From contig OY783217.1 of assembly GCA_963678705.1 (NCBI GenBank), positions 9,362,001-9,426,000 of the forward strand: a stretch of 64,000 bases of DNA, in the 5' to 3' direction. The stretch is from Panorpa germanica. Taxonomy: Eukaryota; Arthropoda; Insecta; Mecoptera; Panorpidae. The notes under the pieces are model-generated. The model was not told the origin of the DNA. It searched no databases and worked only from the letters and a program-made list of their open reading frames with translations. Numbering within the stretch: the stretch's first letter is position 1; each line of letters begins with the position of its first letter. The position numbers were made by a program, and so were the translations under genes. Positions 2,861-26,750 of this stretch are shown one piece after another.

Positions 2861-4394
2861 ATTATATTGCGAAACAGTTGAGCGAATGAAGGAGAGGGAG
2901 AGGATTGAGATAATGATAAGGAGGTGAAGAGGATTACGATAACGTATTTCTGCGATGAACTACTGTGTGATGAATTACAACTAGATAAACTAGTAGACAT
3001 TTTCTATATCCCGTTTTAGATAGTAGGCAACATTCTTCCATAACTTGAACACTGAAATAATGGAGACAAAATTCATCACCATTTTAACGATTTCGGTTGC
3101 GCTATCGAAAACTTCTTAAAATAATAAAATATATCTTTTCACTTAAATTGAATTGAATAATTTTATTTGCTTGCAGAACCACTTACAATATATTTACATT
3201 TAAATTACCAATAAACTAGCATCTAAATATTGAAGCAACTTGTACTATTAACTAGAAAAATATAAAAATGTTTCTGATATGATAAAGGCCGCTACTAACA
3301 TTTTTACCATAAAAAAATAAACCTTTACAATTATTTTGAAATTGCTTTGATATAATAATCGTATATTATTTTATATAATAAATTATTTACAAGCGTTACA
3401 TAATAAACATTTAATATTATTATTATTACCCCGATGTAACACGAAATGAGTGTCCTCTCTCGTTTTATGTGCCGTAAATGTTGCTGTTAACATAAATATA
3501 TTTTTGTAATTCTCAGTTTTTAGGTTTTGAAGCACCAAAGTTTCTAGGTCGTAGTGTTATTACAGTTTTAGTTTTATCCGTACTCGTATGTCTCACAGAA
3601 AAAACAGAAACTTTTAAATGAAGAAATAGTGTCTTATTAGTGGAAGCGTACCGAGTAGGGAGGGGGGTTGTCACAGACCGCAAATCAACATAGGCCTTCA
3701 AGGATTCGGTTCAATTATAGGTAAATACAATTGATGATGCGTCAGATCAAAAGGAAAATGTATTTAAATGAAAACAAGCAGAAAAGCAGTTGTGATTAGA
3801 TACTATTGCGTAGGAAATAAAAAAATGACGCTCCAGATACCCATAATTCTCCTACAGCACTGCTAACAGCTCATTTCATCATTTCATTACGGTTTATTGC
3901 AGACGATGGACAACTATCTTAAATCAATTTTATCTTTGTAGTAAAAAATACACAATTACTAAAAGCAATCAATGTTAACAATTTTATCTTAATACAGTCT
4001 TGTTCTCATGCCCTAAACTGCTACAGTCCTGTGTTCAGCAGACGATCGCTCAAGCAGTTGTATTATACTTCAATTTATGCGAGATACTCGTATAACTAAG
4101 TAGTACAAATCGCAGTAATATAATCAAAAAAGTATTCTTGAAAAGTATACAATACTTTTTTTTACTTATGGAGAATTACTATAAAAATAAGCATTAGTTT
4201 AAACCAGGAGTAGTAGAAGGTTCTCTTGGGTATTTCCTAAATATAATCGTTTGTATAAAATTTGTTCAAACATCTTTTAAAAACATAATTTGTTAAATGT
4301 ATTTCTATGTAAAGTACAATGATAAATATAAAATATAAATAAAAAATAGTAAGTATAGCAGACAAGTAATAATTTCTAAACTAATTTTTTTTAC
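2861..4394. other. Stretch without recognisable gene
   Basis: AT-rich sequence with short ATT-type runs near 3415-3428. ORFs of about 60 codons at 2809-3000 and 3513-3701 (minus) show no family motif. An acceptor-like TTTGCTTGCAG lies at 3167-3177 but no exon follows. I see nothing else to annotate. Confidence 0.4.
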
Positions 4395-4515
4395 ATCAGC
4401 CTATTTTCGATTCTTGCTCCCATCACCGCCAATCTCCTACTATGTTAGCAGCATTTATGCATCGTGGCTTAATACATGTGGAAAACATCGCTGCTTTATA
4501 TGACTTATATACTAA
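4395..4515 (-). repeat. SINE 3' body, reverse orientation
   Basis: CAGCCTATTTTCGATTCTTG, then CACCGCCAATCTCCTACTATG, then GCATCGTGGC and CATCGCTGCTTTATATG follow the reverse complement of the SINE 3' body block by block. The head is missing. Divergence is moderate. Confidence 0.55.
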
Positions 4516-5451: not shown

Positions 5452-5455
5452 CATT

Positions 5456-6188
5456 ATAGTCCAAGATCCCAGAGCGATCTGACATAACTTATTTTCAAAA
5501 GCATAGAACTTTCGGTTCTAAGTAGTCTCTACATGTACTTTTAATACCTGCGTATTTGTGGAGTTCGCTCGGTGACACCTGGGCAGGTACCAGGTGAGAA
5601 AGGTAACTAAAAATCAGAGTTACTTTACTTAAATTTGTATGACTGATTTTTAAATATATTTTGTAGAATGTTATTTCTGAAGTAAAATTAAAAGTGTCAG
5701 ACGCTTTCCATGGGCCAGAACTTTATAACTGACAAAAACATGTTAGTGGTCTCATAAACACAACTACACTGTATACTATATACTGTATATAATACGGTGC
5801 GCGCAATAGTATATACGCATACGTATAGACTGAAACAGATTGTGAGTTTAGGAAGGGGAACCGAGTCACCATGGATGTCAAGTTAATTTATTTTTTACAG
5901 AGCTTTAAAGCGTCTGACAAAAGTTCTGGCCCATGGAAAGCGTCTGACACTTTTAATTTTACTTCAGAAATAACATTCTACAAAATATATTTAAAAATGA
6001 GTCATACAAATTTAAGTAAAGTAACTCTAATTTTTAGTTACCTTTCTCACCTGGTACCTGCCCAGGTGTCACCGAGCGAACTCCACAAATACGCAGGTAT
6101 TAAAAGTACATGTAGAGACTACTTCGAACCGAAAGTTCTATGCTTTTGAAAATAAGTTATGTCAGATCGCTCTGGGATCTTGGACTAT
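5456..6188. repeat. Large inverted repeat: 269-bp arms, 195-bp loop
   Basis: Positions 5456-5724 are the reverse complement of 5920-6188 with no indels and only 3 mismatches that I can find (98.9% identity). The loop is 5725-5919. Beside the loop, AAAGCGTCTGACA occurs twice on the right side (5908-5920 and 5938-5950). The arms contain CACCTG and CAGGTG motifs around 5577-5596 but no recognisable coding domain. A 92-codon frame at 5871-6149 runs across loop and right arm and is probably incidental. No target duplication is obvious. If transcribed, either strand would fold into a dsRNA of about 270 bp, a possible Dicer or ADAR substrate. It could be a foldback transposon or a recent inverted duplication; the sequence does not decide between them. 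Confidence 0.93.
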
Positions 6189-6544
6189 TACTCGTCTTCT
6201 TGGTGAGAAACAAATAATAAATTGTAATCGGAGTTTCCACGCATGGGTTTTTTGATTGTCAATATAATGATAAAAACATTCACCATCTAGAGGCCGCTTG
6301 CCTCAAAAAACTGCTATAAAATATTGCAATTCATTCCAGTATTTTGTTATGTGTATATTTTATATGTATTTATGTATTTTTGCTCGCTGTCCGTAGTAGA
6401 CTCGTATATATTTTATAACTACGACCTATTTTCAGAATGACCATTATTCCAATAGAACGGAATATATAACAAGTATAAACAAAAAGCTATGCGAACAATT
6501 AGTTAATCGATTTCTACATTAAATTTATGGCTTTGGTATATGTA

Positions 6545-9532: not shown

Positions 9533-10542
9533 TATAAATTATTACTTTTTATGTCACATTGAACACATGCTCACTGTTACCTGTCTGGTGTTCCAAGTGT
9601 ATGTACAAATAGTTTATGCTCGTATGTTTATTTTCATGTTACAACTTCAGGTTAGAGTGGTTTCCTTAATTGTCTTTCTGTTTTTGATTTATTTCAAGTA
9701 ACAGCCTTAATTATTTAAATATTTAATTGTTAAACAACAATAGTTGTGCAAAGTTTTAGGCAGAGGCTTGGAACCGAAATGATGTTTATTTTCATTTAGA
9801 TCCGAAAGTGATTTTCTTTTTGCTCCTTCTTTTTGCTGTCCTTCAGTTTGTGCCATAATTATATACAGAGCAAAACGTTTCTTTTATCAAAATAGTAAAC
9901 ATATATTAGCATTACAGTGATCGTTATTTTTCAAACTCGTTATTTTCATAGTCTCACCAGCTAATTTTTTAAACTGACTTAAGAGTACACTCAAAAAATA
10001 CTTCATGTGTCATTCATTTATTTTTAAATAGTGCACTTCAATATTTAGAATTGTGATTGAATGTGACAAATTGATGTGAGGACTGATAAATAAACTTTTA
10101 TGACTAATTTTGAGCGTTGATTCTGGTTTTTAATGATTTATTCCTCCATTTAAAAAAAAATGGCGACCTAGAAACTGTTTCTCTTTTTGAAATATCTCCA
10201 AAACAATGAATCCTTAGATAAAATCGTTATTATAGTAGTCATAGTTATTGCAATTGTTAGTTAAAAATAACTTACTTAAATAGAAATAACTGCAAATCGT
10301 TCTGCCGACTTTATACCAAGGATTAAATTGCCCGAACAATTTACCATTATTAGTCTCTAACTGTCCAAGTTAACTAAACCATTGCGATAACTATAAGCAA
10401 CCAACAACAGGCCGTTAATCTGATAAGGACACAATTTCCTTCAATTTGTAGTGTATACAACATTTTTTTGTATATTTGATAAATACTGATCGGCTCTTCA
10501 CAAATTGAAAATTATAATGATTTACAGTTAAATTAAAAGAAA
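9533..10542. other. Stretch without recognisable gene
   Basis: AT-rich, intron-like sequence. I see no ORF above 60 codons, repeat family or hairpin worth naming. Confidence 0.35.
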
Positions 10543-10556
10543 TTATAAAATTCTTT

Positions 10557-10976
10557 TTTTTTTTTTTTAATATAGTCTCTCGGACTTCCTAGGCACGTAG
10601 CCTTTTATCGCCCCTAATATTGTTCTGCTTTTTCTTTTACGTTATATCCAGACAACAAGAATGATCTATTCATGGCTACTGCAGTTATAAATTTCGGTTT
10701 CTCAATCAAAGACTCTGACTTTAGACTCTCTGTTAACAGAAAGCGTCTGAAAAGTCTGTAGCACCGCCCTTTGGAGTCCATTTCTTGCCATTGCTGTATT
10801 TTTACATTGCCACAGAATGTGGTCAGGATCTGCCTCCTCTTCACCACATTCGCATTTAGAGTTTGGAATGATTTTGTTTCTTGCTAGATGTTTCGGAGCT
10901 CAAGTATGATTCATTCTTAGTGTTGAGGTCATTGTTATTAATCTTCTTGGCCATCTTAACGTTTCAGTATTGGTTG
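10557..10976 (-). mobile_element. 5'-truncated LINE 3' end (family C) with 14-bp target duplication
   Basis: On the minus strand the frame encodes APKHLARNKIIPNSK then CECGEEEADPDHILWQC, the C..CG....D..HIL..C knuckle ending many non-LTR ORF2 proteins. After a frameshift it continues LIEKPKFITAVAMNRSFLLS to a stop and then a poly(A) (poly-T on + at about 10557-10568). The insertion is bounded by TTATAAAATTCTTT at 10543-10556 and 10977-10990. Clean target duplications and good similarity to the copy at 2488-2758 suggest fairly recent activity of this family. One TGA and one frameshift show this copy is dead. It shows where the copy at 2488 carries its 18-base deletion. Confidence 0.88.
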
Positions 10977-11407: not shown

Positions 11408-11769
11408 TCGTATATATTTACTTCTGTTAGAATGTTTTCTGAAAGCTTCGTATTTATCTTTAAGTACATAGTCGAGCTTTTTGCGGAACACTGCAGATAT
11501 ATTTATTGACTTGGACTTTTATTCAAGGTATAATTAAAAACTTAATTACATACCATAATCCTTTTTTAATTAGGTAACTCTTTTTTAACTATTTTCGTGG
11601 ATTAAATTTACATTAGCAAAATGTTTATTATAAAATAGAAAAAATGTTTTTAAAGAATTATGTACTTTAGAGTGTTTTTTAAATATTTTCTTAAATATAT
11701 AATTTTCACTTTATGTGTTGGTATTTAGCAGAACTAATGCGAAATATTTAATGGTTTTTTTTGTAATAA

Positions 11770-11860
11770 TTAATATAACGTCTGCCTATTTTCGATGCTG
11801 AGCCCTATCACCGACGACCTCTTACTATATTGACTGCAGTTGTTGTTTCATATGTGTTTA
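11770..11860 (-). repeat. SINE 3' body fragment, reverse orientation
   Basis: TAACGTCTGCCTATTTTCGA, then GCTGAGCCCTATCACCGACG, then ACCTCTTACTATATTGACTG match the reverse complement of the SINE tail closely. This includes the TAACGT at the 3' extremity. Confidence 0.65.
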
Positions 11861-19271: not shown

Positions 19272-19605
19272 ACTAGCTGTTCCGGCCACGCGTTGCTGTG
19301 ACTAACGTTTTTGTCATATTACATTACATAGCGCCATCTATTGAATATTTACTCAATCTACTCAACAGAATATTTACTCAATCTAGTCAACAGATGTCGC
19401 CATCATCGTCGCCAGATGTCATATGTCATATACAGATAATTAATAGACAATAAGATAATTTTGCAATCATAAATTGAGATGTAAGCTATCCTATCTTTCA
19501 AGTTGGATCAAACTGCACACGGTGTATAAATTTGATTAAAATCGGTTAAGTAGTTTAGGAGTCCATCGCGGACACACAACGTGACACGTAATTTATATAT
19601 ATTAA
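19272..19605 (+). repeat. Dispersed arthropod repeat (ACTAGCTG...CCGGCCACG type)
   Basis: It starts ACTAGCTGTTCCGGCCACGC and ends with AAAATCGGTTAAGTAGTTTA, GGAGTCCATCGCGGACACAC and a TATATATT tail. This layout (CTAGCTG..CCGGC head, ATCGGT.AAGTAGTTT..GAG, ACACAC, short AT tail) is familiar from many insect genomes. I leave the class open. An internal 25-bp duplication lies at 19343-19392. Confidence 0.6.
19343..19392. repeat. 25-bp tandem duplication
   Basis: GAATATTTACTCAATCTA followed by (C/G)TCAACA occurs twice in direct succession (19343-19367 and 19368-19392) with one difference. Confidence 0.9.
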
Positions 19606-26600: not shown

Positions 26601-26689
26601 CTAGCTACGGCACTGTTATCAACAAATATCTATAACAATTTTAAAAGGGACATACTCGGATGGTTATATATACTATTTTAATTTAATTT
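23656..26689. other. Long stretch without recognisable gene
   Basis: A purine-rich run at 23690-23800 (GAAGGAAAGCGAAGGG, GAGGGAAAGAGTGAGG) is strand-asymmetric. Overlapping open frames at 24516-24800 (+) and 24551-24757 (minus) lack any motif. The patch at 24640-24900 is less AT-rich and might be a decayed element. Acceptor-like TTTGCAG occurs at 25340-25346 and 25540-25546 without an exon. The rest is AT-rich. Confidence 0.35.
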
Positions 26690-26750
26690 ATTTAATGTCG
26701 ATCTATTTCCGATGCGGAGTATTATCACTGATGACCTGCTCTTATTTTAA
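26690..26750 (-). repeat. SINE 3'-end fragment, reverse orientation
   Basis: GTCGATCTATTTCCGATGC, then GGAGTATTATCACTGATGAC, then CTGCTC is the reverse complement of the SINE tail. It lies head to head with the forward copy at 26795. Confidence 0.5.

Follow-up and report, generated by a model that had tools for sequence, protein, structure and literature searches.

A near-perfect inverted repeat of Panorpa germanica as a copy of a MITE-like transposon family with a tRNA-Arg-bearing branch

The 64,000-nucleotide stretch of the Panorpa germanica genome considered here (GCA_963678705.1, contig OY783217.1, C14:9362001-9426000 in our numbering; designated the window) contains two nearly identical arms in opposite orientation, and the question raised by this locus is whether the structure represents a source of hairpin RNA, a palindrome maintained by gene conversion, an artefact of assembly, or a mobile element. 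Based on an analysis of the window and on searches of the 464-Mb assembly (249 contigs), we conclude that the segment 5457-6187 is very probably a non-autonomous cut-and-paste DNA transposon, belonging to a MITE-like family that spread recently and has long terminal inverted repeats (TIRs). The family is characterized by its ends, its long repeats, its 3-bp target duplications, its dispersal at high identity, its size classes, whose interiors are rearranged, and a branch that carries a tRNA-Arg gene.

Structure and limits of the element

The inverted repeat described in the initial annotation, i.e. 269 paired bases with three mismatches and a 195-bp loop (arms 5456-5724 and 5920-6188), was reproduced, the only mismatched pairs being 5519/6125, 5615/6029, and 5645/5999. 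It is the longest one reported for the window, in which the next-longest inverted repeats have 94-96 nt (73-84%; 25 longest of 205 pairs). As the outermost pair, 5456/6188, belongs to a TTA target site duplication, the true terminal repeat has a length of 268 bp (Table 1). A second copy of the element was not detected in the window by blastn, the other element matches comprising 13-35 bases. The absence of transposon coding sequence noted previously was corroborated, since neither the open reading frames nor Pfam revealed a transposase coding sequence in 5457-6187. In the whole window, 125 open reading frames of at least 62 amino acids were present after low-complexity filtering, 88 of which were run against Pfam; those overlapping the element (75, 106, and 74 amino acids) matched no transposase family, and the complete set of 88 yielded two weak matches (E 0.0025 and 0.0062). 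A search of the entire window against Rfam at gathering scores gave no match.

Table 1 Features of the element in the window (positions refer to the window)
Feature	Position	Strand	Remarks
MITE copy, non-autonomous DNA transposon, 731 bp, TAGTCCAAG...CTTGGACTA	5457..6187	.	Locus L008
Left terminal inverted repeat, 268 bp	5457..5724	+	Equals the consensus of 53 aligned arms (arms collected for their similarity to this one)
Right terminal inverted repeat, 268 bp	5920..6187	-	3 differences from the left arm, of which that at TIR position 189 is shared with 10 further arms among the 53
Target site duplication TTA, left copy	5454..5456	.	
Target site duplication TTA, right copy	6188..6190	.	
Family-specific internal sequence	5725..5880	.	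40 genome matches including the window copy (67 candidates, best 40 scored)
Homologue of the inner extension of the relatives' longer terminal repeats, on one side only here	5881..5919	-	

Further repeats were observed elsewhere in the window. A second, less similar hairpin is located at 319-412/489-582 (94-nt arms, 84% complementary, 76 nt apart), and inverted copies of one repeat, composed of pieces that are 85-93% alike, are found at 2529-2777 and 10540-10802. The minus-strand open reading frame 2136-2450 matched no Pfam family; we presume that it resembles the tail of a non-LTR retrotransposon. A 53-nt repeat occurs four times (1975-2027, 4371-4423, 11756-11808, and 26673-26725), three of the copies being 62-79% identical to the first; these might possibly be SINE ends, which is a guess.

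Dispersed copies and target site duplications

A genome search with one arm had been proposed in the initial annotation, in which many dispersed copies with target duplications were named as the mark of an ordinary transposon, and this is what was found. The left arm gave at least 41 matches on 13 contigs with 99-100% identity (best 40 of 217 candidates scored); of the 41 that were listed, 40 cover at least 264 of its 269 bases. Likewise, the internal segment 5725-5880 was recovered with 94-100% identity in at least 40 matches (67 candidates, best 40 scored). Among the loci L001-L028, the element is present as a paired copy in 25 cases and as a lone arm in three (L005, L012, and L025). The common TIR is found in elements of about 710, 719, 731, and 750 bp as well as in one copy each of 318 bp (L034), 904 bp (L026), 1126 bp (L010), and 1358 bp (L009); the size classes presumably originated by internal deletion.

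The first set comprises 26 paired copies (25 of L001-L028 plus L034), all of which start with TAG and end with CTA. The sequence TAGTCCAA is present at most of their ends, with the variants TAGTTCAA at one end of L020 and TAGAGTAA at one end each of L026, L027, and L028. Each of these 26 copies is flanked by a 3-bp duplication, which in no case extends to 4 bp; on the fetched strand, the duplications read TTA (8), TAA (6), TAT (4), ATA (4), and TGA, TTG, TAG, and TCA (1 each). In control comparisons, the left flank of one copy was equal to the right flank of another in 110 of 650 cases. At 27 further loci, a pair was identified by the exact end motif in 15 cases, 13 of which have equal 3-bp flanks, and the 12 loci lacking such a pair stand outside the duplication count. 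Together with eight further tRNA-bearing pairs, all with equal flanks (8/8), 47 of 49 paired copies show the duplication, the exceptions being L040, which has an interrupted arm, and L057, a compound array. Since L001 (C20) and L007 (C16) share identical flanks on both sides, they represent one insertion that was duplicated together with its surroundings, and hence 48 distinct sites are left, of which 46 show the 3-bp duplication. This was the only positive case of the shared-flank test among the 49 paired copies, which for the eight tRNA-bearing pairs covered only about 10 flanking bases.

The repeat looks young, in agreement with the previous assessment, as its dispersed copies are 99-100% identical to the left arm, an apparent youth that is biased because the loci are mostly best-scoring matches. 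Two of the three differences of the right arm occur in no other of the 53 aligned arms, and the third, at TIR position 189, is inherited, because it recurs in other copies (Table 1).

The search for relatives outside this genome was negative: exact 20- and 22-base patterns of the element were absent from the viral contig collection, and the exact 22-base pattern gave no match in the searched collection of genome contigs. Similarity to phages (E up to 1, 180 records) covered at most 8% of the query in the 20 listed records and was taken as a chance effect of AT-rich DNA. At L005/L029 (C17 near 1091404), a lone arm directly adjoins an exon which we take to be esterase-like. Gene capture was considered for this locus and rejected; as more such exons continue beyond the arm, in an apparent gene cluster, a rearrangement beside the copy is likelier.

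Alternative explanations and transposon superfamily

The near-perfect hairpin is probably due for the most part to recent spread from a source element that already had two nearly identical arms. The initial annotation had also considered that the arms are kept alike by gene conversion. Ongoing conversion within the element is quite unlikely: the two 458-bp arms of L009 are identical, and the same two variants recur in each arm of L009 and L010, but the arms of one element differ on average at 2.28 of 268 bases (25 pairs, 25 elements), a value close to that for arms of different elements (2.64 of 268 bases; 1353 pairs), and therefore recent spread accounts for their similarity and conversion is not needed. 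Moreover, the window copy retains at TIR position 189 an arm difference that is common to other copies. A dedicated hairpin-siRNA locus, i.e. a transcribed inverted repeat whose Dicer products silence matching transcripts, is still less probable. When folded in silico as RNA, the element reached -515.4 kcal/mol compared to -159.6 on average (sd 8.6) for shuffled sequences, none of 20 folding as well, so that a transcript across it would be predicted to form a duplex of about 268 bp, as anticipated in the initial annotation; in addition, read-through of any near-identical copy could give siRNAs against the whole family. However, among the best 40 of 217 candidates that were scored, the fetched arm matches correspond to further copies of the element and not to a distinct gene, and thus a gene-targeting hairpin received no support; besides, nothing observed sets the window copy apart from its relatives. 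An inverted duplication or a foldback misassembly confined to this one locus, a kind of structure that long-read assembly can produce, is hardly credible, because the element is found with the same ends at 48 differently flanked sites, and the 3-bp duplication is present at 46 of them. What stands of the initial reading is a young repeat devoid of coding sequence and with the potential to form dsRNA, whereas gene conversion is not needed and a targeted gene found no support among the best 40 of 217 arm candidates.

The window element itself is an ordinary young MITE, of a known kind. It shares with MITEs its small size, the terminal inverted repeats, a target duplication of constant length, many near-identical dispersed copies, and the lack of transposase coding sequence. 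Typical MITEs have terminal repeats shorter than 268 bp, whereas those of the present family, with 268 bp here and about 458-476 bp in relatives, take up most of the element. As judged from its anatomy, the element would be moved in trans by a transposase encoded elsewhere that recognises the TAG...-type ends, and it would have inserted at AT-rich sites with duplication of 3 bp.

For an assignment specifically to the PIF/Harbinger superfamily, the chances are about even. PIF/Harbinger elements prefer TWA as target duplication, and other superfamilies with 3-bp duplications include Zator and EnSpm. In the present family, 22 of 26 duplications consist only of A and T, and TTA or TAA accounts for 14 of 26, which is a preference and not a rule. 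DDE_Tnp_4 (Harbinger-type) transposases are abundant in the genome, with at least 151 matches (381 candidates, best 150 scored), and dozens of these loci on many contigs score the same or almost the same and contain open frames of about 325 amino acids, which suggests recent activity. Against the assignment, the TIR ends TAGTCC/TAGAGT are not known to be typical of this superfamily, and L084, the one representative examined of one numerous DDE_Tnp_4 family, has no TIR of the MITE type within 2401 bp; an autonomous partner with the same TIRs was thus not found at this representative, and no transposase is linked to the MITE family as its partner. A 3-bp target duplication, as observed here, is described for PIF/Harbinger (PMC2213677).

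The long terminal repeats also call to mind Tetris and Galileo, in which such repeats likewise make up most of the element, and target duplications in the P superfamily are about 7-9 bp long. Galileo is presented as a member of this superfamily, and both elements as foldback-type transposons of Drosophila (PMC4079207, PMC4168063). Membership in a foldback or P superfamily (Galileo-like) group was rejected, since the MITE family duplicates 3 bp and 0 of 26 duplications extend even to 4 bp.

The tRNA-Arg-bearing branch

In L009 and L010, the TIR is extended to 458 bp, and each arm contains a tRNA-Arg(TCG) gene pointing inward. A probe derived from the inner region of this longer TIR gave at least 42 genome matches (53 candidates, best 40 scored), 40 of which were fetched: 38 arms begin at the TIR end of the family and form the tRNA-arm alignment, the match at L059 is truncated, and L062 has no TIR. 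The tRNA-bearing loci (L009, L010, L056-L061, and L063-L083) are all situated outside the window, L056 being on the same contig about 52 kb past the window end, and the window copy is without a tRNA gene. Fourteen elements have tRNA-bearing arms at both ends (L009, L010, L056, L058, L060, L061, and eight pairs among L064-L079), and because each of the 14 has its own 3-bp duplication, they moved as units. The compound array L057 (C1:15724180-15727600) contains five tRNA-Arg genes within 3.4 kb.

Locus L062 (1001 bp), which lacks the TIR, is 88% identical over 333 bp comprising the tRNA and its flanks. At tRNA position 7, it has a G, whereas 18 of the 19 element-borne tRNAs detected by ARAGORN have a T and the 19th a deletion. 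A TTTTT, the usual Pol III stop, is located shortly 3' of the tRNA gene in L062 as well as in the elements. The Rfam score is 71.6 bits for L062 and 38.6-62.8 bits for the 19 element-borne tRNAs, a set outside which the 20 arms of L064-L083 lie, and all are above the 29-bit cut-off. Judging from these sequence comparisons, L062 is likely a host locus resembling the donor of the tRNA-Arg gene. As a separate observation, a 25-bp unit is present about two times at 19343-19394 of the window, and it may be a dispersed repeat, because a nearly identical doubled unit is found near the host tRNA-Arg gene in L062.

There was no sign of selection on the element-borne tRNAs in the 38 arms: the tRNA part has no fewer substitutions than the adjoining TIR, and therefore nothing shows that these tRNAs are kept for function. 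Hypermutation of the tRNA was considered on the basis of a first set of 18 arms, some of whose loci had been chosen for lower identity, with singleton columns at 16 of 74 positions in the tRNA (8 from one deletion) versus 4 of 353 upstream. It was dropped, as the 38 arms showed 8 distinct substitutions in 73 sites versus 18 in 353 (Fisher p 0.10) and the second batch alone gave p 0.27.

Pack-type elements are gene-capturing transposons, and the longer branch similarly carries and multiplies a foreign fragment, in this case host DNA with a tRNA-Arg gene. Unlike in Pack-type and MER6 elements, the cargo is a whole tRNA gene that is covered by the extended terminal repeat and is consequently present in two inward-facing copies where both arms are intact. 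Within the literature found, the nearest precedent is a SINE domain described as spread by the MER6 DNA transposon (PMC6887750). In titles and abstract openings of the open-licence literature, no description of a tRNA gene carried by a MITE or another transposon was found, and as far as this search shows, the tRNA branch is new. For the cat flea, many tRNA genes are reported, with Arg among the raised families, and the part of that account available to us names no transposon carrier (PMC7305587).

It is conceivable, if doubtful, that the family multiplies a host tRNA-Arg(TCG) gene, terminator included, by carrying it within its own terminal repeats, and that at least some of the dozens of extra genes are transcribed by Pol III, thereby altering the pool of tRNAs or tRNA fragments or helping the element. 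The window MITE serves as a warning that a near-perfect hairpin can turn out to be a recent transposon copy, and its tRNA-bearing relatives would inflate tRNA gene counts in genome annotation. The tRNA branch presents a DNA transposon that spreads a short Pol III-type gene by its inclusion in the terminal repeats.
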